A DNA stretch of 33,773 nt, from the NCBI GenBank assembly GCA_024689485.1, contig JAILDK010000033.1, positions 1 to 33,773 of the forward strand, in the 5' to 3' direction. Origin of the DNA: Fibrobacter sp. (GTDB lineage: Bacteria; Fibrobacterota; Fibrobacteria; Fibrobacterales; Fibrobacteraceae). Shown piece by piece: positions 1,156 to 28,117 of the stretch. Made by a program: the position numbers and the translations under genes. How positions within the stretch are numbered: position 1 is the first letter of the stretch; the number at the start of each line of letters is the position of its first letter. The notes beneath the pieces were generated by a model, which was not told the DNA's origin, made no database searches, and saw nothing but the letters and a program-made list of their open reading frames with translations.

Positions 1156-4100
1156 GTGCCTGTTTTTGCGTTTATACTGCTTTTTTCTGCCGCTCTTTTT
1201 GCCGTAGAACAAGAACAACCGACACCTTACGACCTGATTCGCCCGATTTGGCCGATGAAATGGGATACATCCGCAACGGATGACGGTGGTACGGTAGAAA
1301 GCTTTAGCCAGTACGTTCCGAACACGACAAAGCACAATCCGGTTCCGGCAGTTGGCTCCGTGCCGCAGGACTTCGTCCCGAATGGCATTATTCCGGACTC
1401 CTTAAACCAGGCTTACCGTGACGCCCAGAACGTCCGTATCGGTCGTATTCGTATCAACCAGGCGGGCTACCTTCCGGAAGATACTGAAAAACAGTTCTAT
1501 TATGTGTCCGCAGGCAAATGCGCCGAAACCTATTCGGTCGTCGATCTGGATGGCAACGTCGTTGCCGAAGGCGGCGCCTTTACAAGCACGGGCAAAACAA
1601 CCTCTTCTTCTTGGACAATTGTCGCCGGTACGAATGCCGCAACGAACAACCAGAAGCGCTATTCTGTGGCAGAAGACGGTCCTTCGGGAACGGTCTGCGT
1701 CGGTTACCTCGCCCAGATGGCAGGTCTTTCGAGCGATACCCGTTACCGCGTGAAAGTTTTGAATCAATACTCCTCTACGTTTATTATCAGCGATAAAGTT
1801 TACTCGATGGTCCGCGATGCGACCCTCAAGTTCTACGGCATCAACCGTTCTGGTAATTCCGAATCGTGGTTCCACGACGCAAGCCATACCAAGGATGGTG
1901 GCGGATCTTTTGTGAGCGGCGATGCAGCAGTGACAGGTTTTACTCCGCAAGAAGGCGCTCTGCAGGGCGGTTGGTACGACTGCGGTGACCATTTGAAGGA
2001 ATCCCAGACTCAGGCCTACGCCTTTATGGTGCTCGCAGTGATGGCAGCTTCAAACCCGGACCGCGATGAAGATAATTACGCTTATAACATGGGTGAAACG
2101 GTCAATACCGATGGTGTTCCGGATATTCTCCGCGAAGCCAAGCACGGTGCAGACTTTTTCATGCGTTCTTATGTGTTTGCAAACGGCGTGATCGACAACA
2201 TGGTCGTTTCCGTCGGTAACTTCGGTGCGGACCACGGTTGGTGGGGCCGTCCGGAAAATCAGGACGCTCTCCCGACGACTCTCACGGGTCGTGGCGGTCC
2301 GCATGAACGCGACCTGCGTCTTGGCGAACTTGGATCGAATATTTCCGGTCAGATCGCTGCCGGTCTCGCGATTCTCGGTAAGGATTACCAGGATTACGAC
2401 AAGGCTTTTGCCGATTCCTGCTTGATGGTTGCAAAGAAGATGTATGACTTCGCCAAGAACTTGAAGCTCAAGGAAAAAGGCCTTGGCCCGGGAACCTATG
2501 ACGGCGGCAAGCCTTACGTTTACAACACCGTCGCGGACGGTTGGTCGAGCGCCGCTTATAACGGCAACAACGAATCCCACGACGACTTGGCGATTGCCGC
2601 TATCGCTCTCCATTATGCGACCTACGAAGATACAAAGGTCATGGATTATTTGAATGACGCTGTCGAAGATACGGAAATCGGTGATGACCAGGAAGCTTCC
2701 GTCGGTTTCTTCAACGGTGGTTGGATGGCTTGGAACCGTGACGGTATGCGCAAGTCGAGCAAGAACACAAGCTGGGCAAACGCTTACACCTACACGCTGT
2801 ACGGCTTCTACAAGATGCTCCTCAAGGACGAAGCCACCGGTCTCAAGTACGGTATCGACAACACGACCCGTTTGAAGTACGCCGAAAATGTTGCCTTGAT
2901 CCTTGCAACGAACATCAGCTACCTCGGCGGTTCGGGAACCGAAAGTGTAACAATCCCGACCTTGAACGGTGCCACCCCGGTTTCCTACGGCGATCTCTGG
3001 TATAACATGCAGACCGATCAGACCTGGATTTACAACCGTTATCAGGCTGGTAATATTTTTGAAGTTCTCGCCTACGCCGATGTCACGAAGGACCTCGAAG
3101 GTGTGAAGCTCCCGCAGAAGGGCGTCCAGAACTGGAACTCCACCGCAATGAAGAAGCTCGGCATTAACCAGCTGAACTACATGCTCGGTGTGAACCCGTG
3201 GGATGTTTCCTTCCTCCTCGGTGTCGGAGATAAGAACGACGCTCACCCGCACCACCGTGCTTCGAACCCGGAAGGCAAGAACATGCCGGGTGCAAACTAC
3301 GTTTACAATCCGCCAACCGGTGCTCTCTTCGGCGGTGTGACTCCGAGTGTTTCGGATGGTAACGCTTGGGCCCCGAGCACCATGAGCTGGGAAGATTACC
3401 ATCTTTCGGAAACCTGTATCGATGCTACGGCGATGTTCGTCGCTTCTTGCGCAGTCGCAGTGAAGGAAGAAGACCGCACCAAGGCTCCGGAAGAAGTGAA
3501 TGTGGAAATCCGCTATGTCGGTTATGATTCCGCGATTGTGAAGATCGCTCAGGATCAGCGCGGTCCGGCGATGATCCTTTACAGCACAAGTGAAACCGGC
3601 CCGTTCAACCAGATGTTCAAGGACACGGTGAACGCGGTGAGCCATGAAATTCACATGACGGGTCTCGCAAACGGTACAACCTACTACTTCAAGGTCATTG
3701 CGATTAACGCTCGTAGCGAAGCCTACTCTACCAAGTGGCTCGTCGACAGCACAAGTACGCCGTTCTCGTTCACGACTCTCGTGAGCCCGCCGGCTGACGC
3801 CAACATTCAGAACATCAAGGTTTGTAACCTCTCTGCCGACAGCGCAGAAATCATGTGGTACACGCCGAACGGCCAGTACGAATCCAAGGTCTACTGGGAT
3901 ACGCTCCTGACCTCTTACGATCAGATGACCTGCCCGACTTCCCCGACCGGCACCTGCGACTTCGAAGCAAACGCAGACGTTTCGGGTATTCCGACCAGCT
4001 TCCATTATGTGAAGTTCGGCGGTTTGAAGGAACAGACGACTTACTACTACTGCGTCCAGAGCAATACCTCGATCCGTTGCACGGATGACGAAGGCATGCC

Positions 4101-7100
4101 GCTCAAGTTTACGACGCCGGTGACCTCTTACGACTTCGAAGTTCAGACTTACCAGTATGAATTCGGCGGTCTTGACTTCTTGAACATCAACATTTACAAC
4201 AACGAAGACCGTCAGTTCGACAGCTTGACCCTTCGCCTTTACGTGACGGCAAAGCCGGAACAGATCGAAGCTCAGGCCGGTGAAAATAACCAGCCGGGTT
4301 CTTGCCCGCTTTTGCTCGACTTGGATATTTGCCAGGCCTACGACGAAGCAGGCTTCAACAAGCCATGCGAAACCGACAGCGAAATTCGTGAACTTCTCCG
4401 TGGCGCAGTCCCGGTGAAGCTCGAAGACACTTACAACTCTGCAACGGGAACCTACGACTGGTATATTCCTATCCCGCTCGGATCGACGACCATTAAGTCT
4501 TCTTCCCGTATGCGTATGGACTTGGGCTTCTCCAAGGGTCTTTACCAGAACGGCAAGTGTGATCCGCTCCGTACCGCTCCGGAAAAACGCATGTCCGCGA
4601 CTTCGGGCGACTGGACCTGGGCTCCGCACGAACGCGACGTGGACGGTGCCGATTATGCAGGTATGCCGGTTTGGGGCAAGGATGATGGCGACCAGGACGA
4701 AGCTCCGGTGAACCCGTATGTGGTCGTTTACCGCAAGGACGAATTCGTGGTTGGCTTCAGCCCGTCTTATTCGGAAATGGCAACGAAGCGCGCGAATTAC
4801 GAAATCTCTGTTGCCTTCAACGAACCGTTCAACGTTTCGAATGGCTCTTACATTCAGATTGACTCCACCACAAGCACCATGCACTTGACGGGTAACGCCA
4901 CCATTTCGGAAAATGGCTACGTGACCGACATCTGGGTGAACGGTGTGGCGCTTTCTGCAGAACAGCGTGCCAACGCAGCGGTCTATAACTATGCAACCGG
5001 TCGCTTTGACTTGAACATTCCGGTCAAGATGAGCATTGGTACGAACAAGATTGACGTGACGATTTTCGCAGGTCCGGATCCGGATTGTGCGGAATGCCTT
5101 GAAAACGGCGGTTGCGCATTTGTGAACCGTACTTACTATGTGCAGTTCAGCAAGGGAGACCGTACCGCGGGCAAGATTCAGCTTCTCCGCGAAGATGGAA
5201 CTTCTGTGTCGAGCCCGGTGACGGACGATCCGATGAAGTTCAAGGTCTTTGTCAGCGATAAGGACAATGCGGCTAGCGAATCGATCCATGTGATGTTCCA
5301 CAATTCCCGTACCGGCGATTCCACCGAAGTGACCTTGAGCCGTACCAACGAAACTCTCGGCTACTTCGAAAGCGAATGGCTCTCTGCGGTGAACTCGGCT
5401 GACGCAAGCCTCCCGAACGTTTCGCTCCTCGGCGGTGATACGGTGACGGTTGTCTACATCGACGTGGAAGATCCGGAAGATTCGACGGCTCAGGCATTCT
5501 TCGCCGACCCGACGACTCCGATTCCGCAGAAGGCAATTCTCACGGATGCAGATTGCGACGCTACGGCGGATGCAATGACCATTACCTTTAGTGGAAGCCA
5601 GTTCGACGGATCTTCGATCAAGCTCGACAGCGTCCGCCTTTCTCTCGATTCCACGAGCACGACCGCCGCAACGGAAATTCTCGTGAAGCCGTCGGAAACG
5701 GTCATTGGCGCAACGGCGAACTTCTCACTTGCGGGTCTCGGCATTCCGAAGAATGCGGCCCCGGCAGGTAAGGCTACGATCTACATGACAGAAGACGGCG
5801 TGGTGAAGTCTTCGGAAAAGACGATTACTGACGGTATCGCCCCGAACCTCACAAGCGTCGCCATTCTTGAAAATGAAAACCATGAAAATGCCCAGGATAC
5901 GCTCCGCATTGCATTCTCGGAACGCATCACCATGAGTACTTCTTCTTGGCCGCTCGCCATTTACGACAGCACTGGCGCAGAAATTGACCAGAGCACGATC
6001 AAGGTCATCAGCGCCAAGTCTACCGACAACGGCAAGATCTGGGAATATGTGGTCGAAGGCAATACCGAAGGCAATTTCATTAAGCAGGGTTACAAGGCTG
6101 TGATCAAGGCAGGCTTCACGGTTGTCGACTTGGCGACGAACGCCCTCTCCGATTGTAACGGAGCCGTCACGATCATCGAATCCGTACGTCCGGTTCCTGT
6201 GAAGTATGCTAACATCATCGACAACGAAGGTGATGGTCAGCCGGATGAGATTTATATCGAATTCACGAAGCTTCTCCGTGAAAAGGATATGCTCGACACG
6301 ATTGACGTGTACTGGGGCAAGCCGGAAGTCTATGTGGCATTCCCGATGCCGAGCTCCGGTTGGGATCTCGACACCGTTTATGGTGAAAAGGTTGCCAAGT
6401 ACATTACGCAGCTCGACTCTTCGAGAGGAACCTGGGTCAAGGGTTCTGAAAAGAAGACATGCTCTAGCTACAAGGATGTGGTGACTTACGTCACCGACAC
6501 GACTTACACGATTGACAGTACCTCCGGTGATACGACAGGTATTGCTAAAATCGATACGCTCTCTTCGACAACCTCGCAGACTTGCGCAAGCTACGTGACC
6601 ACTCAGGATTCGACGTTTGTCCCGGCGATCGATACGCTCGGTATTGACTCGGTCCAGAGCACCACAACAGCAATCCGTCTCGCTATTACCGGTGATACGT
6701 TCAACAAGAAGACCTACGGTAACCGCAACGGCAACGGTATGATCTTGCCGCGTCAGGGTCCGCTCGGAGGCTTCTTCGACGACAATACGGCAGCCCTTTA
6801 CGACAAGTGCCCGCCGATTATCTTGAGCGCAACAATTTCGAAGCCGACTGAATCCTTCTACATCCTCCGAGTGAATCTCTCGGAACCGATGAACGTGGAT
6901 TCTTCTGCAGTGGGAACAAATTACCTGCAGAAACGTCGTGACGAAAGCCTCTACTGGTTCACCAATACGGGTAAGCTCACGAATACGGGTACGACTTGGA
7001 CGTTCTCTTACGCGGACGAAGGTTCTGAAAACGAAGTCCACGTCGGTGACTACATCCGTCTCCCGATCGGTACGGAATACTCCATTGCACACGACGGATC

Positions 7101-7776
7101 TTCGAACTTCCCGGGCAAAGAAAACCCGTGGGTTCTTGTGCAGGGCGACATCGAAGATGTTTCCTTCAAGGTTCACATGCTCGCAGGCGTAACCTCGGTC
7201 CCGGCAGAAAACGATCTCTATGCGGGCAAGCTCCCGACCCGCGACGAAAGCTTCCGTCTCACCTACCTGGTAGACGACAAGGAAACGCTCATCGCTTCGG
7301 GCAAGAGCAAGCTGCATGAAGTGACGCCGACGACGTACGATACCTTGACTTACATCCACGGCGGTCCGACCTTTGATATCGACGTCGAAATTCCGCTGCT
7401 GTTGCAGCTCGATTCCCTCGGCGAAGATGCTTGGAAGGCAACGCTCAAGATGTCTGCCGATATCTACAGCAACACGGGTAGCCTTGTCGCTCAGACGTCC
7501 TACTCGTTCACGCTCTCGGATATCGCAGAATCTGCAATGAGCACCGACGGTGTGATCAAGCTCCGCCTTGAATGGGTCACGCATGACGGCATCGCTCCGT
7601 TCTCGGAAGCAGGTCGTCACATCGGTACAGGCGCTTACATTTCGAACTTCTCCTTCAAGGCAAACGAAGTCGCTGTGGGCAACACCGCAAACGGCAAGTA
7701 CAAGAAGGGACAGACGAAGAAGCAGTCTGCAAGCAAGACGAAGACCTTCGGCTTCCGCCGAGTCAAGGGCAAATAG
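1156..7776 (+). CDS. Giant multi-domain GH9 endoglucanase (cellulase), 2206 aa
   Basis: Likely a secreted endo-beta-1,4-glucanase acting on cellulose. A hydrophobic signal (residues 1-16) is followed by an Ig-like cellulase N-terminal domain (about 95-215, RINQAGYLP) and a GH9 (alpha/alpha)6 barrel (about 220-765). The GH9 signatures are present: WYDCGDH with the Asp pair 275/278 (nucleophile-water activation), HPHHR at 697-701, and SWEDYHLSET with Asp747 and the expected acid Glu752. Two fibronectin III-like domains (about 777-870 and 877-987) follow, then a beta-rich module with loose CBM3-like spacing (about 990-1190) and several Ig-like modules with Asp-rich loops at 1464 and 1689. The last 75 residues are a Lys/Arg-rich tail ending FGFRRVKGK. 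The start is GTG with a strong RBS. Oddly, the signal n-region has no Lys or Arg. Family is certain; exact substrate is inferred. Confidence 0.95.
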   Translation: MPVFAFILLFSAALFAVEQEQPTPYDLIRPIWPMKWDTSATDDGGTVESFSQYVPNTTKHNPVPAVGSVPQDFVPNGIIPDSLNQAYRDAQNVRIGRIRINQAGYLPEDTEKQFYYVSAGKCAETYSVVDLDGNVVAEGGAFTSTGKTTSSSWTIVAGTNAATNNQKRYSVAEDGPSGTVCVGYLAQMAGLSSDTRYRVKVLNQYSSTFIISDKVYSMVRDATLKFYGINRSGNSESWFHDASHTKDGGGSFVSGDAAVTGFTPQEGALQGGWYDCGDHLKESQTQAYAFMVLAVMAASNPDRDEDNYAYNMGETVNTDGVPDILREAKHGADFFMRSYVFANGVIDNMVVSVGNFGADHGWWGRPENQDALPTTLTGRGGPHERDLRLGELGSNISGQIAAGLAILGKDYQDYDKAFADSCLMVAKKMYDFAKNLKLKEKGLGPGTYDGGKPYVYNTVADGWSSAAYNGNNESHDDLAIAAIALHYATYEDTKVMDYLNDAVEDTEIGDDQEASVGFFNGGWMAWNRDGMRKSSKNTSWANAYTYTLYGFYKMLLKDEATGLKYGIDNTTRLKYAENVALILATNISYLGGSGTESVTIPTLNGATPVSYGDLWYNMQTDQTWIYNRYQAGNIFEVLAYADVTKDLEGVKLPQKGVQNWNSTAMKKLGINQLNYMLGVNPWDVSFLLGVGDKNDAHPHHRASNPEGKNMPGANYVYNPPTGALFGGVTPSVSDGNAWAPSTMSWEDYHLSETCIDATAMFVASCAVAVKEEDRTKAPEEVNVEIRYVGYDSAIVKIAQDQRGPAMILYSTSETGPFNQMFKDTVNAVSHEIHMTGLANGTTYYFKVIAINARSEAYSTKWLVDSTSTPFSFTTLVSPPADANIQNIKVCNLSADSAEIMWYTPNGQYESKVYWDTLLTSYDQMTCPTSPTGTCDFEANADVSGIPTSFHYVKFGGLKEQTTYYYCVQSNTSIRCTDDEGMPLKFTTPVTSYDFEVQTYQYEFGGLDFLNINIYNNEDRQFDSLTLRLYVTAKPEQIEAQAGENNQPGSCPLLLDLDICQAYDEAGFNKPCETDSEIRELLRGAVPVKLEDTYNSATGTYDWYIPIPLGSTTIKSSSRMRMDLGFSKGLYQNGKCDPLRTAPEKRMSATSGDWTWAPHERDVDGADYAGMPVWGKDDGDQDEAPVNPYVVVYRKDEFVVGFSPSYSEMATKRANYEISVAFNEPFNVSNGSYIQIDSTTSTMHLTGNATISENGYVTDIWVNGVALSAEQRANAAVYNYATGRFDLNIPVKMSIGTNKIDVTIFAGPDPDCAECLENGGCAFVNRTYYVQFSKGDRTAGKIQLLREDGTSVSSPVTDDPMKFKVFVSDKDNAASESIHVMFHNSRTGDSTEVTLSRTNETLGYFESEWLSAVNSADASLPNVSLLGGDTVTVVYIDVEDPEDSTAQAFFADPTTPIPQKAILTDADCDATADAMTITFSGSQFDGSSIKLDSVRLSLDSTSTTAATEILVKPSETVIGATANFSLAGLGIPKNAAPAGKATIYMTEDGVVKSSEKTITDGIAPNLTSVAILENENHENAQDTLRIAFSERITMSTSSWPLAIYDSTGAEIDQSTIKVISAKSTDNGKIWEYVVEGNTEGNFIKQGYKAVIKAGFTVVDLATNALSDCNGAVTIIESVRPVPVKYANIIDNEGDGQPDEIYIEFTKLLREKDMLDTIDVYWGKPEVYVAFPMPSSGWDLDTVYGEKVAKYITQLDSSRGTWVKGSEKKTCSSYKDVVTYVTDTTYTIDSTSGDTTGIAKIDTLSSTTSQTCASYVTTQDSTFVPAIDTLGIDSVQSTTTAIRLAITGDTFNKKTYGNRNGNGMILPRQGPLGGFFDDNTAALYDKCPPIILSATISKPTESFYILRVNLSEPMNVDSSAVGTNYLQKRRDESLYWFTNTGKLTNTGTTWTFSYADEGSENEVHVGDYIRLPIGTEYSIAHDGSSNFPGKENPWVLVQGDIEDVSFKVHMLAGVTSVPAENDLYAGKLPTRDESFRLTYLVDDKETLIASGKSKLHEVTPTTYDTLTYIHGGPTFDIDVEIPLLLQLDSLGEDAWKATLKMSADIYSNTGSLVAQTSYSFTLSDIAESAMSTDGVIKLRLEWVTHDGIAPFSEAGRHIGTGAYISNFSFKANEVAVGNTANGKYKKGQTKKQSASKTKTFGFRRVKGK

Positions 7777-7805
7777 CCGGTTCGTTTCCGAATCTTTACA
7801 ATCCC

Positions 7806-7836
7806 AAGGAAACCGAGTCATTCGGTTTCCTTTTTT
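7806..7836 (+). terminator. Intrinsic terminator after first GH9 gene
   Basis: An 11-bp perfect stem (7806-7816 with 7822-7832, loop GTCAT) runs into six T residues at 7831-7836, 30 bases after the stop codon. The two GH9 genes are therefore probably separate transcription units. Confidence 0.9.
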
Positions 7837-7954
7837 GTTTTTCGAAAACACTTCGGGAACAGATTCGCCTTCCCCACTTTGCAAATCCAAATTTTGGGAT
7901 TCTTAAAAAAGGTATTTTTGGAATAGGTGTGTTGGTCATTTGAGTGTTTGGGTT

Positions 7955-7967
7955 TTCAAAAAAGGAG
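7955..7967 (+). promoter_or_regulatory. Ribosome-binding leader of second GH9 gene, identical to first
   Basis: TTCAAAAAAGGAG, the same 13-mer as at 1138-1150, sits six bases before the ATG at 7974. This decides the start: an in-frame GTG at 7944 would add ten residues and put the RBS inside the coding sequence. The bases just upstream (TGTTTGGG against TGTATTTGGA) are also similar in the two copies, pointing to duplication of the whole 5' region. Confidence 0.75.
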
Positions 7968-7973
7968 TCCCCG

Positions 7974-10900
7974 ATGGTACGCCTCATTTTTCTGCTCTTA
8001 ACGTTAGCCGCTGTATTGTTTGCGGACGATCGCATTCCCAATATTGACTTTACCTGCGATACGTGCAGCCGTCGTTACCTCGACAGTTTGAACGTTTACG
8101 ACCGCCCCGTCATCCGTGTAAACCAGATCGGTTTCCGTCCCTCGGATAATCACAAGTTTGCCGTTGTCGCGGATCCAACGGCTACGACATTCAAAGTGGT
8201 GGATGCTTCGAGTGGAGCATCCGCTTGGGAAGGCAACCTGACCGCACTCGGCAACTGGACAAAGCCAGGCATTTGGGTGAATGGAGCCTTCAACTCCATC
8301 AGTGCAGTTTATGAATTTGGCGATACCACTTCTTCGGGAAAAGAAGACCTTTACAGCGCCGATTTTTCGGGTTTGACCTCTCCGGGAACCTACTTTGTCG
8401 TCGTCGGCCAAGACACCTCTTTTAACTTTATCATCAACGAATACCTTTTTAATGCCGTCTTTGAAACGACCTTGAAGTTCTTTGGCATTCAGCGTTGCGG
8501 AAATACGAATTCGCACATTCACGGCGCTTGCCATACAAAAGACGGTTCTGCGATCGGTCACGATTTGAGCGGCGGTTGGCATGACTGCGGCGACCATTTC
8601 AAGGTGAGTCAGACCCTCGGATACGCCGCGTTTGTTCTTTCGATCGCTTATAACGTTTATTCGGAACGTGCCGAAGACCGCTTTGGCGCTTCTTACGCGG
8701 ATACGGTGACAACGGACGGTATTCCGGATATTCTTTGGGAAGCGAAGATCGGTGTGGACTGGATTTACAAGATGTACAAAGCTTCGAAGGCAGACGGCTT
8801 GATTGAACAGGGTGACATGTATCATTCTGTTGCGGTCAGTTCTGCAGACCACCAGTTCTGGGATGTGCCGGAGCATCAAGATGCCCAGAGCACCGCCAAG
8901 GGCGGCGCTCCGCGACCTGTCGCGGCCGGGATCGGAACGAACGCGGCGGGCATGTTTGCCGCTGCGATGGCCTTCTTTGCTGTCGGCTGGGAAATGTATG
9001 AAGACGACAACTATTCGGATTCCTTGATTGCGGCCGCAGCCGATATTTATAAGAACATCATTGCGAAGTACGCTCCGGATGGCAAGAATACCGATAATTT
9101 GGAAGGCTTCTACACCGGCGGTGGTCCGCTTTATGATGACGCCGCAGCCGCCGCACTCGCTCTTTGGTATGCCACGAAGGACACCACCTACGCTTACGAT
9201 CTTTACAAGAATCCGGCAATCAACAACAACGCAAGCAATTACAAGTACAATCTGCCGTATTTCCGCGGCGGTTATATGGGCCACACGAGCGGCTTCTACC
9301 CGGGCGGCTGGATGACGGACTATGAAAACATCCACGCTTATGTGCTTTTTGCTTTCGATAAGCTCATTCTTCCGACGGTTGCCAAGGCGCAGAGCTACGG
9401 CATTTCTTCCGAAGAGCGCGATACCCTTTTGACCCGCATCATTGCGACCATGACCCGTTTGACCGACGATGGAACGCAGGGAGATTCCACCGTCAGTACA
9501 AACCCCTATGGATCCTTTACCATTGTGCCTCCGTACAACCTGGTCTGGACTTCGAGCGACTGGGGCTTTAACCGTTACAACATGGGTGCCGCAAACGCTG
9601 TGTTCATGCTCTACGACATGACGGGCGACGAACAGTATTTGAATGTTGCTCTCGATAACTTCTACTACAACATGGGCGCAAACCCGTGGGGCCTTTCCTT
9701 CATTATGGGCGCAGGAACCCGCAACGAAAACCACCCGCATAACCGCGCAGCAAACCCGGACGGCTATAACGCAGGCGGCATGCCGTATGAATACACCTGT
9801 CCGAAGGGCGCTCTCATGGGCGGCTCCGCACCGGAAAAAACTTTGAAGGATGACTGGAACGACTACACCGCCACCGAAACCTGCATCGACTTTACGTCGC
9901 AGTTCGTGATTCCGGGTCTTAGCCTTTCCAAGAAGGTTCCGGAAGACGTCGATGGACCGGTCTTCTCGAATATCGCGGGAACCGCCATCACGGATACCTC
10001 TGCAGTCATCAGCTGGAATACAGACGAACGTGCTATTGTGACTGTTTACTATGCAACCACACCCGATGCGGCAAAGGTTGATTCCGTGACCGCAACGGCG
10101 GGCGTCGGAGGCTCGGTAACGATTACAGGTCTCACCTCTGGAACGACTTATTACTTCTACCTCGTCGGGCATGACGTCAAACAGAATTACACGACCGATG
10201 ACAATCACGGCCAGTGGTATTCTTGGACGCAGACGACGACCGCAGTCGATATTTCGGGCGTGACAATTTGCCAGGTGACAAACAACAGTGCCCACGTATA
10301 CTGGTGGACGGGTGACGTCGCCATGAACGGCCTTGTGCAGTATGGGACCTCTTCCGCTGCCCTCTCCAGTTCGACCGTAGCGGATTCCGGCAAGGCGGTT
10401 CGTTTCCACGAAGCGATCCTCACCGATCTCGATCCGGGTCAGACCTATTACTTTGACGTGGTTTCCGGTGCGACGACCGAAAACAATTCCGGTTCTCACT
10501 ACAGCTTTACCACTTCCTCGGAAGCGACATTTGTGGACTTCCGCGTGTACGTGAAGCCCGCCAACAAGAATTCTTCTTGCACCGATTGGAAGAGCTGCAA
10601 CACGTTCTTTGTGATCGTGACGAATAGCGATACACTTCCCTACTCCGACGTGGAACTGCGTTTCTACTTGAACCAGAGCGTTTCGGCTACGGGCTGGGGA
10701 CAGCTTGCAAAGGTCTCTTATGACGATGCATCCACGATGTCGCTTTCCTATGGCGCAGCCCAATTCGATGCGACAAGCGGCGGCTACTACCTGCCGATTA
10801 CCTTGGAAGGCACGATCGGCGTTTCGAGCAGTTTCCAGTTTGAAATGCAGTTTACGAATGCCACCTATGGAGATTTGGACGGATCCTGGTCGCTGCGCGC

Positions 10901-13712
10901 TCATACGGATTCAACGGACCCGGAATACTTTGCGGGTATTGACCTCACCAAGGGACCTCTTTACACAGGTTCGGAATCCTCTTACCTCGAAGAAGTGAAC
11001 GGCGTCACGGAAACGGCCTACACAAAGGATCCGTATGTAACGATCTTCTACCACGGCACGCATATCTACGGCTACCCGCCAGATTACGACGCCTCTTCGA
11101 GCGATCTTTCAATTACCCGTACCATCACGCTCGATTTCGTGACCCCATTTGAATCCCCGGCAACGTCCAAGGAAGATACGGTCAATACGGCAACGTACAG
11201 CGGCGAAAGCACCGTTTCTCCGTCGGGCTTCCTCGACGACTTCGAAGGCAACGGCGTTTCTTACTTCAGTTCGAATACGCAGTATGTGAACAAGTACGAC
11301 GATTACATATTCTCGATTTCCAAGAACCTCGCCTACGGCAACAACATGATTGACTGGGTTTCTTGGCACAATCATGGTGCGAATGCCAAGGGCAGTTACG
11401 ATTGCGCCTGTAAGGTCGTCCGTTCGAATGTGGAATGGGACTCCATTGTGACGCCGCTCGAAAAGCGTTACCTTGTGTTCAACAAGGATACTGCCAAGGC
11501 TTATGTCGGCAAGCGCGCCCAGGTAATCGTGACTTTGTACGATTCGACAGGTGCGGTCATTACGGATGACGACATCACGATTTCGCTCTCGGTCGAAGAT
11601 GGTTCCGCCTTCTTCTACACCTCGGCGACTGCGGATATCGCAACGACGTCTCTCACTCTCGTAAACGGCACCGCGACCTTCTACGTCACAAGCGATACGC
11701 CTCTCGAAACGATTCTGTACGCAAGCTCGATTTCTTCAAGTTCCAAGTACAATTACACGTCCGCCAAGGCAGTCCTTTTGATTGAAGAACTTCCGCCTTG
11801 GCCGATTATCGACTACGCGAAGATGCTCGACACGGATTGCGACAACGTTCCGGATCAGCTGCAGATTCTCTTGACCGCCTCCTATCAGAGCGGACAGAGC
11901 TTTAGCTCGGTTTCCTTCGAATACCGCGGCGATACGCTGAGCGTTTCGAGTGCAGACATTCAGGATTCGCTGATTACAGTCAACTTTACCCCGAAGGACA
12001 CTTCCGTGTACACGAACCCGGAAGGTTCCATCACGCTCGAAAGCAACATCAGCGGCGAAACGAAAACGCATACCGATTACTACCAGGACGGCATTTCTCC
12101 GACAGTGCTTTCGCTTTCCGTTTTGGAACGCTTGGATACCGCAACGGTGGACCGCATCTACATCCAGTTCTCGGAACCGATTTCCGCTCCGGGTCTCGCT
12201 TGGCCGCTCGCCCTGTACAACGCAAGCGGAAATCCGTTAGACATTACCCCAAGCGTCACCAGTTCCAAACTTTACAACGAAGCCTTGAACGTTTGGGAAT
12301 ACACGATTTCCTTTGACGCAAGCGGGAACTCCCTCATCACCGAAGGCATGAAGGGTCAGCTCCTTGCGTCCGCAACGATTACCGACAAATCGGGCAACGG
12401 CATTTCCACGCTCTGCACTCAGCCGATTCTCACGTTCACGCTCAAGATCATGCCGATTCCGCTCAAGTATGCAAGCATTTCGGACAGCGACGGAGACGGC
12501 CTCGCCGATCAGGTCTTTGCCGAATTTACGCAGACTGTCGACAGCCGTCACGCTCCGGACAGCGTCTCGGTCATCTTCGGCAGTGCCGTTCCAGAAACAC
12601 TTTGGACAAATTCCTTCAGCTGGAATTCCGAAGGAACCGAAGCGACAATCAAGCTCGATCCAGCATTTAAACTCGGCAACACGAACGGCAACTACTCGGG
12701 CATTTCTTCGAAGGGCGGCGACATCGTGGGCGCAGGTCTTTTGACCCAGCACAAGGGTAGCGGCGCCAACTACGAAAGCGATTCCACCCTCGCCGAAGAC
12801 AAGACGGGCCCTGTGATTGTCGCAGGAACGATCAACGAAGCAGGCTCCTTTGTTTCGCTTCTCGTCGAAGCCAGTGAACCGCTCGTCGTCGGAGACTCGA
12901 CCTTGAACCTGATCCAACGCGAACGCAGCGGTCCGGTGAACGTTTACGCCTACCGCTGGACTCTCGGATCGAATACGTTCAACATGCTCTACGAACAGAG
13001 CTCGGAAACCGCCGTCCAGGAAGGTGACCGCATCCGCTTCACACCGCAAGACGGAAGCCTCTTCCTCGACAAGAACGGCAACCAGCCCTCGCTTGAAAAT
13101 CCGTGGGCAACCGTTGCAGGTTCGGGCGATCCGCAGATTACGTTCGACGTCCACCCGGAAAATCCGGTTTCCGATGTTTCTTCGTCCAAGTCCGAAACCT
13201 GTACCGAAGCGAAGGAACCGTTCCGCCTGATCGTTTTGAACCAGGAAACGCGTAAGTGGGACATCTACGAAAAGGATCAACTCGTGGAAAGCGTCGACAC
13301 GAACGCCTATACATTCGACGGCATGCTTTACGTCATTGACATGGGCATTCCGCGCGGTACGAGCTTCGGCGAAGCTCCGGCATGGAAATCGATTCTCCTG
13401 AGCGTCGATATGCCGTTCTACACGAACCTCGGAACCTTCGTGAACCGTTATGACCGCGACTTCAACCTGACGCCGACGTATCTTTCGAGCGATAACCAGG
13501 TTGTGATGCGCTTGCAGTGGCTTTCGAACTGCACCAAGGGCCTTTCCTCGGAAAGCGGACGAGCCGTTGGTACAGGCGCATACATCGCCAAGATCGATAT
13601 CGGAGCGAAGTTCATTCCGAATACTGAACTGGACGACGAACTTGTCAAGCGCTTCTCGTCGAAGGATAGTTACACAAAGACGCAAACTTTTGGCATCCGC
13701 CGCGTCCAATAA
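7974..13712 (+). CDS. Giant multi-domain GH9 endoglucanase (cellulase), 1912 aa
   Basis: A secreted GH9 cellulase paralogous to its upstream neighbour. The signal peptide (MVRLIFLLL..., cleavage near residue 17) precedes an Ig-like N-terminal domain (about 46-150, RVNQIGFRP) and the GH9 barrel (about 155-650). Catalytic motifs are WHDCGDH with Asp204/Asp207, HPHNR at 587-591, and DWNDYTATET with Asp630 and Glu635. Two fibronectin III-like domains (about 659-755 and 758-852) and a beta module with CBM3-like spacing (about 853-1045) follow. A bacterial Ig (Big-1/invasin-like) domain at about 1157-1270 has no evident counterpart in the first enzyme. Asp-rich loops begin at 1286 and 1504, and the tail (about 1841-1912) ends FGIRRVQ. 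A duplication with later domain exchange is the simplest history. Substrate specificity cannot be read from sequence alone. Confidence 0.95.
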   Translation: MVRLIFLLLTLAAVLFADDRIPNIDFTCDTCSRRYLDSLNVYDRPVIRVNQIGFRPSDNHKFAVVADPTATTFKVVDASSGASAWEGNLTALGNWTKPGIWVNGAFNSISAVYEFGDTTSSGKEDLYSADFSGLTSPGTYFVVVGQDTSFNFIINEYLFNAVFETTLKFFGIQRCGNTNSHIHGACHTKDGSAIGHDLSGGWHDCGDHFKVSQTLGYAAFVLSIAYNVYSERAEDRFGASYADTVTTDGIPDILWEAKIGVDWIYKMYKASKADGLIEQGDMYHSVAVSSADHQFWDVPEHQDAQSTAKGGAPRPVAAGIGTNAAGMFAAAMAFFAVGWEMYEDDNYSDSLIAAAADIYKNIIAKYAPDGKNTDNLEGFYTGGGPLYDDAAAAALALWYATKDTTYAYDLYKNPAINNNASNYKYNLPYFRGGYMGHTSGFYPGGWMTDYENIHAYVLFAFDKLILPTVAKAQSYGISSEERDTLLTRIIATMTRLTDDGTQGDSTVSTNPYGSFTIVPPYNLVWTSSDWGFNRYNMGAANAVFMLYDMTGDEQYLNVALDNFYYNMGANPWGLSFIMGAGTRNENHPHNRAANPDGYNAGGMPYEYTCPKGALMGGSAPEKTLKDDWNDYTATETCIDFTSQFVIPGLSLSKKVPEDVDGPVFSNIAGTAITDTSAVISWNTDERAIVTVYYATTPDAAKVDSVTATAGVGGSVTITGLTSGTTYYFYLVGHDVKQNYTTDDNHGQWYSWTQTTTAVDISGVTICQVTNNSAHVYWWTGDVAMNGLVQYGTSSAALSSSTVADSGKAVRFHEAILTDLDPGQTYYFDVVSGATTENNSGSHYSFTTSSEATFVDFRVYVKPANKNSSCTDWKSCNTFFVIVTNSDTLPYSDVELRFYLNQSVSATGWGQLAKVSYDDASTMSLSYGAAQFDATSGGYYLPITLEGTIGVSSSFQFEMQFTNATYGDLDGSWSLRAHTDSTDPEYFAGIDLTKGPLYTGSESSYLEEVNGVTETAYTKDPYVTIFYHGTHIYGYPPDYDASSSDLSITRTITLDFVTPFESPATSKEDTVNTATYSGESTVSPSGFLDDFEGNGVSYFSSNTQYVNKYDDYIFSISKNLAYGNNMIDWVSWHNHGANAKGSYDCACKVVRSNVEWDSIVTPLEKRYLVFNKDTAKAYVGKRAQVIVTLYDSTGAVITDDDITISLSVEDGSAFFYTSATADIATTSLTLVNGTATFYVTSDTPLETILYASSISSSSKYNYTSAKAVLLIEELPPWPIIDYAKMLDTDCDNVPDQLQILLTASYQSGQSFSSVSFEYRGDTLSVSSADIQDSLITVNFTPKDTSVYTNPEGSITLESNISGETKTHTDYYQDGISPTVLSLSVLERLDTATVDRIYIQFSEPISAPGLAWPLALYNASGNPLDITPSVTSSKLYNEALNVWEYTISFDASGNSLITEGMKGQLLASATITDKSGNGISTLCTQPILTFTLKIMPIPLKYASISDSDGDGLADQVFAEFTQTVDSRHAPDSVSVIFGSAVPETLWTNSFSWNSEGTEATIKLDPAFKLGNTNGNYSGISSKGGDIVGAGLLTQHKGSGANYESDSTLAEDKTGPVIVAGTINEAGSFVSLLVEASEPLVVGDSTLNLIQRERSGPVNVYAYRWTLGSNTFNMLYEQSSETAVQEGDRIRFTPQDGSLFLDKNGNQPSLENPWATVAGSGDPQITFDVHPENPVSDVSSSKSETCTEAKEPFRLIVLNQETRKWDIYEKDQLVESVDTNAYTFDGMLYVIDMGIPRGTSFGEAPAWKSILLSVDMPFYTNLGTFVNRYDRDFNLTPTYLSSDNQVVMRLQWLSNCTKGLSSESGRAVGTGAYIAKIDIGAKFIPNTELDDELVKRFSSKDSYTKTQTFGIRRVQ

Positions 13713-17856: not shown

Positions 17857-18492
17857 TTACTTGACGCAGCGAACCGAAAACCCAAAGGTTTTCGGTTTTG
17901 TCATATAGGCGAATCCCATCGATTTGGAACTCATGTACCAGACATTCGCCTCTTCGCCTTCGGCGCTTGCGCTCCAGAAGAATGCGATTTTGCTCAAATT
18001 TCCATAATTGCCGTCGTCAAAGCGATTGCCGGCAGGCATGGCGCTGAATTTGAGAGTATCGTTGCCGTTTGTTTCCCCCGACCAGCCGTAATCCGTTTTT
18101 AAAAGATAGGCGGCGTTAAAGTCCGCACCGGCTGCGGTCCAGAGGCTTTCAAAATCTTCGTCTGTGGGCAGGCGATATCCTGCAGGGCAAGCTTTGATCG
18201 CCGCGTCCCAGGTATAAAGCCTTCCGTAAGCCATGCAGTTGTTTTCGTCTTCGGCGTAGCAGTAGCTGTCGGGAGCATTGAAATTCAGATTGTCGGCGAT
18301 CCATTCGCGGCCGGCAATTTTCACCGTGCGATACTTTTGCTTGTCGCGGGAATCCGTCAATTCCGACTTTTTCAGTTTTGCAACCTTTGCCGTTTTTGCC
18401 TTGGAAGGTTTGGAAGCCTTTGAGGTTTTTGCCGCTTCGGATGTGCAGAACAAAAGCAGAAGCAAGCAAAGAAGGATCTTGACGGATTTCAT
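17857..18492 (-). CDS. Secreted FISUMP-domain protein with Lys-rich linker
   Basis: The 211-aa product has a signal peptide (MKSVKILLCLLLLLFCTSEA), a basic Lys/Ala/Ser/Thr segment (about 21-42) and a FISUMP domain (about 43-211) with the family landmarks TVKIAGREWIADNLNF, YGRLYTWDAA, CPAGYRLPTDEDF, FWSAS and SVRCVK. FISUMP domains are abundant in Fibrobacter secreted proteins; their molecular role is not established. The ATG at 18492 is chosen because it follows the upstream methyltransferase stop by four bases with a purine-rich GAAGTGGGG before it. A TTG at 18510 would add six residues lacking signal character. It is last in a tight operon with nrdR and a methyltransferase gene. The stop is three bases from the stop of the convergent NtrC-type gene. 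Confidence 0.88.
   Translation of the reverse strand: MKSVKILLCLLLLLFCTSEAAKTSKASKPSKAKTAKVAKLKKSELTDSRDKQKYRTVKIAGREWIADNLNFNAPDSYCYAEDENNCMAYGRLYTWDAAIKACPAGYRLPTDEDFESLWTAAGADFNAAYLLKTDYGWSGETNGNDTLKFSAMPAGNRFDDGNYGNLSKIAFFWSASAEGEEANVWYMSSKSMGFAYMTKPKTFGFSVRCVK
17872..17899 (+). terminator. Intrinsic terminator of signalling operon, inside convergent gene
   Basis: An 11-bp perfect stem (17872-17882 with 17887-17897, loop CAAA) ends in TTTT at 17896-17899, 19 bases after the NtrC-type gene's stop. It lies wholly within the last codons of the convergent FISUMP gene (residues around PKTFGFSV). No T tract follows it on the minus strand, so it should act only on the plus-strand operon. Confidence 0.8.
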
Positions 18493-18496
18493 TCGA

Positions 18497-19453
18497 CTAC
18501 CCCACTTCAATCATAACCGCAGAAAGGGCGCTTTCCTTGCGCTTGCCGGATCCCGGGAAATCCATTCCCTGTCCACGCGCCCATGCGATTTTCGCCTTCG
18601 GGAATTGTTCTTTGACAGTCGCCAAGGTTTCTTTCGCAAGGCCTTCCGGCGTGAATGCGCTGTAATTTGTACTCGCGAGGAAGAACGCTCCCGGGGCGAG
18701 AAGTCCTGCGACTTCGGCGACCAAGGTCTGAAAATCCGTTTTCACGGAAAAGACCTTTCCCTTGTTACGGGAAAAACTTGGCGGATCGAGAACGACGCCG
18801 TCAAACTTAAAGCCTTTGCGCAAGCACCACGCCAAATATTCTCGGCTGTCCCCCTTGAAGAATTCACCCTTCAAAGGTTCAAGGCCGTTCAAGCGGTAAT
18901 TCTCGCGACCCTTTTCCAAAATCTTTCCGCTGATATCCGCATTGACCGCACGGGTCGCGCCGCCGACACGGGCGTGCACAGCAAAACTGCACGTGTAGCT
19001 GAAAAGGTTCAGCACTTCTTTTCCGCGGGCGCGGGCTTCCACGTCCAAGCGGCCATCTCGCATGTCCAAAAAGAGGCCCGGGTTGACCGTATCGAGAAGG
19101 TCCACGTGAAAGCGGCAGTTCCCTTCGCGGACGATCGTCGAAGATTCCGTTTCGCTGCCGAGTTCTACATGCATTTCGGGCTTTTCTAAAGATTTTCCCG
19201 ACGGAGAAAGCCGGAACTTGGAGACGATAAACTTCGGAGCAAAAACCTCTTTGACCGCCGTCGCAATTTCTTGTTCGCGGGAAAGCAGTTCCGGGCCAAA
19301 ATATTGAACCTGAAAGCGATCGCCGTACTGGTCGATCGCGACGCCCGGAAATCCATCGTCCGAGCCGTTCACGACGCGAAACGCGTCGGTCAATTCCAAA
19401 AGCGAAGAACGCTTGGAAAAAGCTTTTTCCAGAAGGCTTCGAAAATCGTTCAC
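18497..19453 (-). CDS. Class I SAM-dependent methyltransferase, RlmI/RlmK-like (probable rRNA target)
   Basis: The 318-aa product matches the RlmI/RlmK group of large-subunit rRNA methyltransferases: FRVVNGSDDGFPGVAID (25-41) in the central domain, LFLDMRDGR (127-135), SAM-binding LNLFSYTCSF (148-157), the acidic NADIS strand end (171-175) and DPPSF (223-227). It is shorter than E. coli RlmI (about 396 aa) because it lacks an N-terminal PUA domain. At the place where RlmI has its catalytic Cys (a CS-type motif), this protein has STNYSAF (261-267), so cytosine-C5 chemistry looks unlikely and the methylated base is uncertain. The start is GTG with an AAAGAAAAG leader, two bases after the nrdR stop. 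Predicted location is the cytoplasm. Confidence 0.85.
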   Translation of the reverse strand: MNDFRSLLEKAFSKRSSLLELTDAFRVVNGSDDGFPGVAIDQYGDRFQVQYFGPELLSREQEIATAVKEVFAPKFIVSKFRLSPSGKSLEKPEMHVELGSETESSTIVREGNCRFHVDLLDTVNPGLFLDMRDGRLDVEARARGKEVLNLFSYTCSFAVHARVGGATRAVNADISGKILEKGRENYRLNGLEPLKGEFFKGDSREYLAWCLRKGFKFDGVVLDPPSFSRNKGKVFSVKTDFQTLVAEVAGLLAPGAFFLASTNYSAFTPEGLAKETLATVKEQFPKAKIAWARGQGMDFPGSGKRKESALSAVMIEVG

Positions 19454-23988: not shown

Positions 23989-26237
<2,249 letters not shown>

Positions 26238-26260: not shown

Positions 26261-26356
26261 CATTTCCAAGGAAACTTTTCCAAAATTCCGCCTGTTTTCT
26301 CAAATTTCTTATTTTGAAAGCAACCGATCCTTTTCGAAAAGCATCCAAAGGATAGA

Positions 26357-26902
26357 ATGAGCGAAAAAGAGATTATCAAAAAACTCCAAAAGGGAGATTT
26401 GAGCGCCCTCAAGCGCGTCTGGGACGAGCATAGTCAGCACATGCTGAACCTCGCCTTCCGCATGCTCTTGGACCGCGATCAGGCAGAAGACATTCTGATG
26501 GATGTCTTTGTCCAGATTCCGGAAGCGATTCAAAAATTCCGCGGAGAATCGAGCCTTTCGACGTGGCTTTACATGCTGACGAAAAACGCCTGCCTGATGA
26601 AGCTGCGCAGCGACAAGGTTCACTTGACGATCGAAACCGACCGCCATTTGGAAATAGAAGAACGCGCCATCGGACGATCCGATAAGACAGATGCGATCCT
26701 CGACAAGGAAGCTCTCACTTACGGTCTCTCCATTCTCACGCCCGATCAGCGCAGCCTTTTATGGCTCAAAGACGCGGAAGGTCTCGACATCAAGACCCTT
26801 TCTGAAATGTATAACGCGCCGGAAGGCACGCTCAAAGCCCGACTTTCCCGTGCCCGTGCACAGGTCCGTCAGGTCCTCGATAAGGAGACAACTTATGCGT
26901 GA
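26357..26902 (+). CDS. ECF-type RNA polymerase sigma factor
   Basis: A 181-aa group IV sigma factor with only regions 2 and 4. Region 2 covers about 17-88 (RDQAEDILMDVFVQIPEAI, then KFRGESSLSTWLYMLTKNA). Region 4 covers about 117-175 (LTPDQRSLLWLKDAEGL, then APEGTLKARLSRARAQVR). AAGGA precedes the ATG by five bases. The stop overlaps the next gene's start by eight bases, the usual arrangement for a sigma factor with its inhibitor. It probably responds to an envelope signal passed through the next two proteins. ECF sigma factors usually activate their own promoter, and the 125-base upstream region holds inverted repeats, but no promoter could be assigned with confidence. Confidence 0.93.
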   Translation: MSEKEIIKKLQKGDLSALKRVWDEHSQHMLNLAFRMLLDRDQAEDILMDVFVQIPEAIQKFRGESSLSTWLYMLTKNACLMKLRSDKVHLTIETDRHLEIEERAIGRSDKTDAILDKEALTYGLSILTPDQRSLLWLKDAEGLDIKTLSEMYNAPEGTLKARLSRARAQVRQVLDKETTYA

Positions 26903-27224
26903 AGAAATCGATTTTTCCAAGTCCATGAGGCTGGAACCTCGCAGCGATTCCTGGGCAAAGGTCGTCGCCCGAATCGAAGCCAAGCAAGAAGAAAAACGGT
27001 TCATCTTGTTCCGCAAACTTTCCTCTGTGGCTGTCGCCGCAAGCGTTCTGCTTGTCGCCGGCGCGTTCTTCCTCGGAATGAACACCTCTTCGATCTCTCA
27101 AGAAATCCTTGAAGATACTGATTCTTCGGTGGAATCCCTTTCCTGGTATTCTTCCCTAGGTTCCGGAGAATCCGTCAGTACCTTCGCCACCGCTTTCGAC
27201 AACTACTACACAACAGGAGAATAA
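26895..27224 (+). CDS. Small single-TM protein, probable anti-sigma factor
   Basis: The 109-aa product has a charged cytoplasmic N-terminus (1-40), one membrane helix (about 42-62, SVAVAASVLLVAGAFFLGM) and an acidic, Ser-rich periplasmic end. It has no zinc-binding HCC motif. Starting inside the sigma gene by eight bases, with AAGGAG ten bases before the ATG, suggests translational coupling and a fixed ratio. In size and topology it resembles CnrY (about 95 aa), the membrane anti-sigma factor of the Cupriavidus nickel/cobalt system. Function is inferred from position and topology, because the sequence has no recognised domain. Confidence 0.75.
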   Translation: MREEIDFSKSMRLEPRSDSWAKVVARIEAKQEEKRFILFRKLSSVAVAASVLLVAGAFFLGMNTSSISQEILEDTDSSVESLSWYSSLGSGESVSTFATAFDNYYTTGE

Positions 27225-27227
27225 ACC

Positions 27228-27980
27228 ATGCAAAAAAGCTACACACTTCTTTGGATTTGCGGACTTGTCTTAGCCGCCGCTGTCGGCTTCTTTGCAAGTT
27301 CCGTCGTCTTCTGCGCCAAAAATCCGCATCCGCCTACCGCGCCGGAAATTTCGCAGGATAAGCCTCAAAACGAATGGCGCGCTTTCAAAAAGCAGCAACG
27401 CTTCAACTTTAAGCACCAAATGGACAGCGCTCTTGGACTTTCTAAGGAACAGATCGCCAAGCTCGACTCCAACGGTCGCGCCTGTGATTCGCTCCGCCGC
27501 GAAATGAGTCGCCAGATCAAGCTTGCCGAACAGGAACTCCACACGATCCTCAAGGCAGACAAGATCGACGAAGCGGCTCTCCAGTCTACGCGCGCCAAGC
27601 TGCTCCTGTTGAACGAAACCCGCTTGGATCAGCGCATTCAAGATGTCAAGTTCTTCAAGAGCGTCTTGACCGCAGAACAGCAAAAAAAGTTCAAGGCTCA
27701 AGAATCCAAGTTCGACAAGATGCACCCGAAGGGCGACATGACGGAACATCTGCAAGATGAAATGCATGGTCCGCGTCACGAACAGGATGAACATACCAAC
27801 ATGGATCGTCCTAACATGGAACGTCACGGCATGGAACATCCCAACATGGAAGGTCCGCAGATGGGCCACGGTCCGCACATGGGAAATGGCCCGAAGCCTA
27901 TGGGAAATGGGCCACACGGCGATCGTATGGGTCCCCCGTCAAATCGTGACGACGCTCACAATATGCCTCCGCGTGAGTAA
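27228..27980 (+). CDS. Membrane-anchored periplasmic LTxxQ (CnrX/ZraP/Spy-like) protein with Met/His-rich tail
   Basis: The 250-aa product has an N-terminal membrane anchor or signal (about 5-28). A helical LTxxQ-type domain follows (about 45-165), with LSKEQIAKLD at its start and LTAEQQKKF at its end; this fold is shared by CpxP/Spy chaperones and by the metal sensors CnrX and ZraP. The last 86 residues hold 12 Met and 11 His in short degenerate units (NMERHGMEH, PHMGNGP), suggesting metal binding, possibly copper or nickel. It starts three bases after the anti-sigma stop with AGGAG upstream. The most likely role is sensing envelope metal or stress and controlling release of the sigma factor. 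A purely protective chaperone role is the alternative. Confidence 0.82.
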   Translation: MQKSYTLLWICGLVLAAAVGFFASSVVFCAKNPHPPTAPEISQDKPQNEWRAFKKQQRFNFKHQMDSALGLSKEQIAKLDSNGRACDSLRREMSRQIKLAEQELHTILKADKIDEAALQSTRAKLLLLNETRLDQRIQDVKFFKSVLTAEQQKKFKAQESKFDKMHPKGDMTEHLQDEMHGPRHEQDEHTNMDRPNMERHGMEHPNMEGPQMGHGPHMGNGPKPMGNGPHGDRMGPPSNRDDAHNMPPRE

Positions 27981-28078: not shown

Positions 28079-28117
28079 AAACAAGCGTAGGCCTCTTCGG
28101 AGACCTACGTTTGTTTT
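28079..28117 (+). terminator. Intrinsic terminator with UUCG-capped stem
   Basis: The stem pairs 28079-28091 with 28104-28116 (one G-T wobble). After a C/A mismatch, three more pairs are closed by a TTCG tetraloop at 28096-28099. It ends in TTTT at 28114-28117. It terminates the sigma operon or the short transcript proposed just upstream. The minus strand shows TTGTTT after the stem, so it may also serve the convergent dusA gene. Confidence 0.85.

Follow-up and report, generated by a model that had tools for sequence, protein, structure and literature searches.

A conserved operon of an ECF sigma factor, a presumed anti-sigma protein and a Spy-like protein in Fibrobacteraceae, and its predicted efflux regulon

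On a 33,773-nucleotide stretch of DNA from a member of the Fibrobacteraceae (assembly GCA_024689485.1, contig JAILDK010000033.1; the whole stretch is called the window here), a gene for an ECF sigma factor is followed directly by genes for a small protein with one transmembrane (TM) helix and for a membrane-anchored LTxxQ protein. Which genes does this sigma factor control, and is the signal that sets it free a metal or some other stress on the cell envelope?

The operon, its proteins and their distribution

The sequence-only reading of this locus had described an ECF sigma factor, a 109-residue single-TM protein whose gene overlaps the sigma gene by eight bases and an LTxxQ protein starting three bases later. 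An ORF check of the window confirmed all three reading frames and their coordinates. The features of the region are:

26320-26348, + strand: autoregulatory ECF promoter, conserved at the sigma gene and recovered in a pattern search of the window's own genome
26357-26902, + strand: ECF sigma factor gene, 181 aa, with Pfam Sigma70_r2 and Sigma70_r4_2 over cut-off
26895-27224, + strand: presumed anti-sigma gene, 109 aa, with its ATG at 26895 and an 8-bp overlap with the sigma gene
27228-27980, + strand: gene of the anchored LTxxQ/Spy-like protein, 250 aa, presumably a sensor or modulator, beginning 3 bp past the anti-sigma gene
27723-27977, + strand: Met/His/Pro/Gly-rich tail of the LTxxQ protein, seen in the sequence and disordered in the model (pLDDT mostly 44-57)
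28079-28117, no strand assigned: inverted repeat followed by a T run, found by eye; possibly a terminator serving both the operon and the dus gene that converges on it

That the three genes form one conserved operon is practically certain. By protein search, the LTxxQ protein was present in 53 of 121 Fibrobacterota genomes, all but one of them in the family of the window, and in a first survey of loci found through this protein the trio was contiguous in 30 of 30. A second survey, independent of the first, scanned named genomes with a sigma profile and found the trio kept in 65 of 65 Fibrobacteraceae loci, a set that takes in F. intestinalis ATCC 43854 and many F. succinogenes MAGs. Four extra loci carried the trio where the LTxxQ protein had been missed or matched weakly. 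The 8-bp overlap is usual across the surveyed loci. Flanking genes vary, with tgt beside the trio only in the nearest relatives and dus in a few more. An anti-sigma profile recovered a single copy per genome within six family genera (g1-g6), no match in the family genera g7, g8 and g9, and a single weak match (E = 0.006) outside the family in the phylum sample. The next matches of the sigma profile, 12 Bacteroidota ECF sigma factors of 24-28% identity (L231-L242), had no credible partner of either kind, and we therefore claim no wider family. Genome G118 holds two anti-sigma/LTxxQ pairs on different contigs (L021; G118:C97:5519-6381).

The 181-residue sigma factor consists of Sigma70 regions 2 and 4 only (PF04542, 1.3e-11; PF08281, 2.3e-8; both over the Pfam cut-off), lies within the size range of ECF sigma factors (ca. 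160-200 aa) and scores 77 bits against TIGR02937 (cut-off 42.9). Its nearest solved structures by sequence are those of SigW (91 bits) and of the AlgU/RpoE type (RpoE, 70 bits).

For the 109-residue TM protein, no Pfam or NCBIfam family was matched, and its inhibitory role is therefore deduced from gene position, topology and conservation; taken together, these make it highly likely to be the anti-sigma protein of this sigma factor. A conserved cytoplasmic block at residues 5-28 (IDFSKxxRxxPRxDSWxKVxAR) is presumably the sigma-binding part, and the single TM helix is followed by a conserved periplasmic SWYxxLG motif (residues 83-89), presumably a docking or cleavage site. Class II (CnrY-type) anti-sigma proteins carry a cytoplasmic sigma-binding segment of less than ca. 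50 aa before one TM helix (PMC7406223), and the TM protein, in which ca. 42 residues precede the TM segment, falls into this size class. Anti-sigma proteins of this class would contact regions 2 and 4 of their sigma factor with two helices; the single-chain structure model of the TM protein was of low confidence (pTM 0.26).

The LTxxQ protein is built from a TM anchor (residues 3-29), a helical core (ca. 47-165) and a Met/His-rich tail (ca. 166-250). In the window protein, matches to Metal_resist/LTXXQ (PF07813, 21.1 vs 24.3 bits) and Spy stay below threshold, and among 39 homologues, 34 reach E <= 0.01 against PF07813 (lowest E-value 2.7e-9). Together with LTxxQ-type motifs at the ends of helical hairpins, this profile match assigns the protein to the LTXXQ/Spy-CpxP-ZraP superfamily. 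In profile comparisons its sequence comes close to Spy (3.7e-4) and to a VirG-like protein (2.2e-5), not to CnrX. The core was modeled as helical hairpins with pLDDT > 90, and in a Foldseek search of the PDB the best 14 fold matches all belonged to the ZraP/Spy/CnrX/CpxP superfamily, with probabilities up to 1.00, TM-scores of 0.62-0.72 on CnrX chains and E-values of 0.07-0.3, which are modest because the core is small.

Q75 and E150-Q151 are invariant among the LTxxQ homologues, and conservation extends to an Asp (37/39), to R136 and to the LTxxQ-type motifs. The metal ligands of CnrX, which we take to be H42, H46, E63, H119 and M123 and placed by anchoring on the LTxxQ motifs, correspond in the 39 homologues mostly to Pro, Asp (37/39), Arg, Gly and Leu, with no conserved His, Cys or Met at these positions; a CnrX metal site was rejected on these grounds. 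The added Met/His tail of the sequence-only reading is real, but it is confined to the lineage of the window and not conserved family-wide. In Fibrobacter, the homologues frequently carry instead a linker rich in Cys and His between anchor and core (as many as 15 Cys and 11 His), and early branches have little of either tail or linker. Linkers with 10-15 Cys, unusual for a periplasmic protein, occur in part of Fibrobacter (L171, L193, L201, L212, L220, L222, L227) and possibly bind metal in an anaerobe. To judge from these residues, metal binding by the LTxxQ protein is possible, yet it is no feature of the family.

Elsewhere in the window, the proteins encoded at 17857-18510 (- strand) and 23989-25092 (+ strand) share a similar C-terminal domain of the KYRTVKIGxxxWxAxNLNF type, which we take to be familiar from paralogous lipoprotein-like proteins of Fibrobacter; in the second protein it is preceded by a long Ser-rich stretch. 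Two giant consecutive secreted proteins of 2206 and 1922 aa, encoded at 1156-13712, have N-terminal parts that, by eye, look similar to each other and cellulase-like.

The promoter and the predicted regulon

A promoter of the consensus GCAACC-N16-CATCNAA precedes the sigma ATG, with GGAACC or GCAACG as -35 box in a few genera and one CACC variant. It was found at the sigma gene in 30 of 30 loci of the first survey and 64 of 65 of the second. In the window, the -35 element GCAACC (26320-26325) and the -10 element CATCCAA (26342-26348) are separated by a 16-nt spacer, and the -10 element ends 8 nt before the sigma ATG; this distance is 8-9 nt in 26 of 30 loci. ECF promoters typically carry AAC in the -35 box. 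Since the spacing allows transcription to start only at or a few bases from the ATG, the sigma mRNA is probably nearly leaderless. Possible start codons of other regulon genes (L074, L075, L077, L080, L089, L332) lie 0-5 nt past the -10 element. Leaderless transcripts may be common in the regulon.

The sequence-only reading had suggested a search for regulon promoters, and these were found ahead of RND and MacAB-type genes elsewhere in the genome. In the 2.5-Mb genome of the window, GCAACC-N15-18-CATCNAA matched six times (reversed control: 0), and three of the six matches sit 8-25 nt before a start codon, namely those of the sigma factor, an RND adaptor and a MacB-type ATPase. At the RND locus (C101), the gene after the adaptor encodes an RND permease of 1468 aa in fusion with an outer-membrane efflux domain; at the MacB locus (C77), the MacB-type ABC ATPase is followed by its permease. 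A relaxed promoter pattern gave no added target in this genome. Intragenic matches (C21, C74 and C92 of this genome, and many of the loci L041-L070) were counted as chance.

The regulon was tested family-wide on sites independent of the sigma promoters. A weight matrix built from sigma promoters only was applied to the 200 nt before the gene at 30 adaptor and 30 MacB ATPase loci, with more than 13 bits taken as positive and 305 windows of the same length as background. Matches above 13 bits were obtained for 26 of 30 RND adaptors and 29 of 30 MacB genes, and for none of the 305 background windows (best 9.2). The single MacB gene lacking a match lies near a contig end. For one RND adaptor (L109) the site is just beyond the 200 nt read (seen in L101), and for three (L111, L129, L132) no site was found within the first 200 nt. 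Across 60 family genomes, the exact pattern occurred 272 times compared with 27 for the reversed control, some matches being intragenic, and this control understates the noise in coding sequence, where CATCGAA-like strings are common. Our claim therefore rests on the matrix test, on the loss of the motif and on covariation of the -35 box.

As for motif loss, the genera that have no module (g7, g8, g9) showed no motif before MacB (0/6) or before the best adaptors (0/5). As for covariation, the -35 box reads GGAACC at both sigma and MacB in g6, GGAACC and GGAACT in g3, and GCAACG at sigma, the RND adaptor and the TolC-MacA-MacB operon in g5. These patterns strongly support the assignment of the GCAACC-N16-CATCNAA promoter to the sigma factor of the trio, and that it drives the RND and MacAB genes is very probable indeed.

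The arrangement of the target genes differs among genera. In g5, one promoter stands ahead of the entire TolC-MacA-MacB-permease operon, and in one g4 genome it precedes a MacA-MacB-permease set; in Fibrobacter (g2), the TolC-like, MacA-like and MacB genes lie apart and each was found with its own promoter copy. The C-terminal fusion of the RND permease to an outer-membrane channel (OEP) occurs in g1, g5 and g6 (1457-1468 aa; L039:3075-7481, L244-L247, L250, L251), where the junction holds a hydrophobic stretch resembling a signal peptide, and the Fibrobacter permease is unfused (1019 aa). The separate Fibrobacter TolC was considered as a simple fission product of the fused protein, an idea that was dropped because its identity with the channel domain of the fusion is only ca. 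25%. In several Fibrobacter genomes, the same promoter is also found at the gene of a DUF3300 protein with unassigned function (L057, L073, L084, L090), which points to a possible role of this protein in envelope stress.

Known systems and competing explanations

The locus had been likened to CnrH, CnrY and CnrX, and of this comparison layout, the size class of the anti-sigma protein and the sensor fold stand, whereas sequence kinship and metal ligands do not. CnrYXH of Cupriavidus metallidurans (pMOL28, NC_007972, 53310-54612), a Ni/Co-responsive system, likewise combines an ECF sigma factor, a short single-TM anti-sigma protein and an anchored CnrX/ZraP/Spy-fold protein in one operon, and both systems have an RND pump among their targets. 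However, our trio has the sigma gene first, a difference already pointed out and confirmed here against the CnrYXH locus, its pump is unlinked and of the multidrug type, and MacAB-type exporters are added. CnrX and the sensor align with 3.7 bits (hhalign probability ca. 1%), CnrY and the anti-sigma protein with 1.1 bits (1.3% over 12 columns), and CnrH gives a generic ECF match only, with 25 bits as compared to 91 for SigW. Unlike CnrYXH with its adjacent heavy-metal (HME) RND, no RND lies within +/-3 kb of the 65 loci. The earlier statement that no efflux pump is nearby thus holds for the window and for these flanks, except for ABC ATPases at some loci that are only ca. 30% identical to the MacB ATPase. 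The trio is not a Cnr member: neither the sequences of sensor and anti-sigma protein nor the metal ligands, the order of the genes or the class of the pump agree.

In regulon content, the closest likeness is to BaeSR of enterobacteria, whose regulon comprises BaeSR, Spy, AcrD and MdtABC (PMC4107485). Here, too, a small regulon unites the regulator's own genes with a Spy-fold protein and a multidrug RND. The likeness is one of regulon content only, since the operon encodes no kinase in place of the histidine kinase and response regulator of BaeSR: a sigma/anti-sigma pair replaces the two-component system, the Spy-like protein is anchored and co-encoded with the regulator, and MacAB-type exporters are included. 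By analogy, the trio would resemble a Bae-type response carried out by a sigma factor and its anti-sigma protein in a CnrYXH-like layout. CpxP, an LTxxQ-fold periplasmic protein, is thought to restrain the membrane regulator CpxA until stress titrates it; in the trio, the partner of the Spy-like protein would be an anti-sigma protein instead of a kinase. With RpoE/SigW-type sigma factors, its nearest solved relatives, the sigma factor shares autoregulation and an AAC-containing -35 box, but its anti-sigma protein is much shorter and not related by sequence to any known family, the promoter is GCAACC/CATCNAA and the regulon is one of efflux.

We consider the trio to be an envelope-stress switch controlling efflux, with a probability of about 0.7. 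The trio, its conservation throughout the family, the common promoter and the targets of this promoter are observed in the sequence; sigma/anti-sigma binding, the sensor role and the signal are what we infer. In the resting state, the sigma factor would be held by the short N-terminal part of the TM protein in the cytoplasm, and the anchored Spy-like protein would contact the periplasmic SWYxxLG motif and keep the TM protein inhibitory. Envelope stress, such as toxic amphiphiles, misfolded protein or possibly metal, would engage the Spy-like domain, whereupon the inhibitor would release the sigma factor or be cleaved. RNA polymerase carrying the sigma factor would then transcribe from GCAACC-N16-CATCNAA promoters its own operon, the multidrug-type RND pump and the MacAB-TolC-type exporter genes, and transcription of the own operon would yield more sigma factor together with fresh inhibitor and Spy-like protein.

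The sequence-only reading had left metal and envelope stress side by side as signals. Envelope or toxicant stress is favored because the predicted regulon is made up of multidrug-type RND and MacAB-type exporters and no heavy-metal RND: the RND under the promoter scores 975 bits against the multidrug family NF033617 and 336 bits against CusA/CzcA, and a metal-pump regulon was rejected accordingly. A metal-responsive system of the CnrYXH type, in which the LTxxQ core, the Cys/His linker or the Met/His tail binds a transition metal and sigma release leads to metal export, would be consistent with component types, topology and the CnrX-type fold, and the linkers of Fibrobacter homologues and the tail of the window protein leave a metal input open. 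We nevertheless regard it as unlikely in light of these targets, the replaced ligand positions, the variation of linker and tail among genera and the missing kinship with CnrX or CnrY. That metal is not the main natural signal can be said with good confidence; the likely signal is toxic amphiphiles or damage to the envelope, and plant phenolics of the kind that induces Bae in enterobacteria, tannins for example, are our guess by analogy for a signal in the gut.

The role of the LTxxQ protein is less settled. It could be output only, a stress-made Spy-like chaperone, with the signal entering through proteolysis of the anti-sigma protein at or near SWYxxLG. Regulated proteolysis is the usual release route for ECF sigma factors (RseA type), Spy is itself an output of BaeSR, and the periplasmic SWYxxLG motif is conserved in its own right. 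A free periplasmic chaperone, however, would not need an anchor, and in every locus the LTxxQ protein has an anchor and is translated directly after the anti-sigma protein, as a partner would be. We thus hold the output-only role to be doubtful, though less so than metal sensing, and lean towards an LTxxQ protein that tunes the anti-sigma protein. It is very improbable that another sigma factor reads the motif, or that the motif acts as a general promoter in Fibrobacteraceae with the trio as just one target among others. The link between motif and sigma factor is statistical, but the motif is rare (the six matches in 2.5 Mb), is missing at pump genes of genera that have no sigma factor, varies in its -35 box together with the sigma factor's own promoter and stands ahead of the sigma gene itself in nearly every locus.

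Meaning for the Fibrobacteraceae

No description of this system and no ECF study was found for Fibrobacter in the open-access literature, in line with the earlier suggestion that this could be a pathway not yet described in the phylum; a literature search on 'periplasmic heavy metal sensor' proteins with sigma factors yielded nothing useful. The trio, a probable stress switch, is common to most gut bacteria of the Fibrobacter family. As a tentative proposal, we put forward a previously undescribed envelope-stress system of Fibrobacteraceae in which an anchored Spy-like protein gates a minimal anti-sigma protein via SWYxxLG, and the sigma factor drives a compact regulon with two tripartite exporters (an RND system with fused or separate outer-membrane channel, and MacAB-TolC), its promoters lying so near the start codons that several transcripts would be leaderless, that of the sigma factor first among them.

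With these results, Fibrobacterota gains an ECF pathway whose promoter code and targets are spelled out, and the pathway is therefore testable at once. If true, the proposed mechanism would join the CnrX/Spy fold with a sigma/anti-sigma switch that serves efflux in general, beyond metals. As one regulator appears to govern both the RND and the MacAB-type exporter, the finding bears on the tolerance of plant phenolics, bile and feed antimicrobials in major fiber degraders of the gut.
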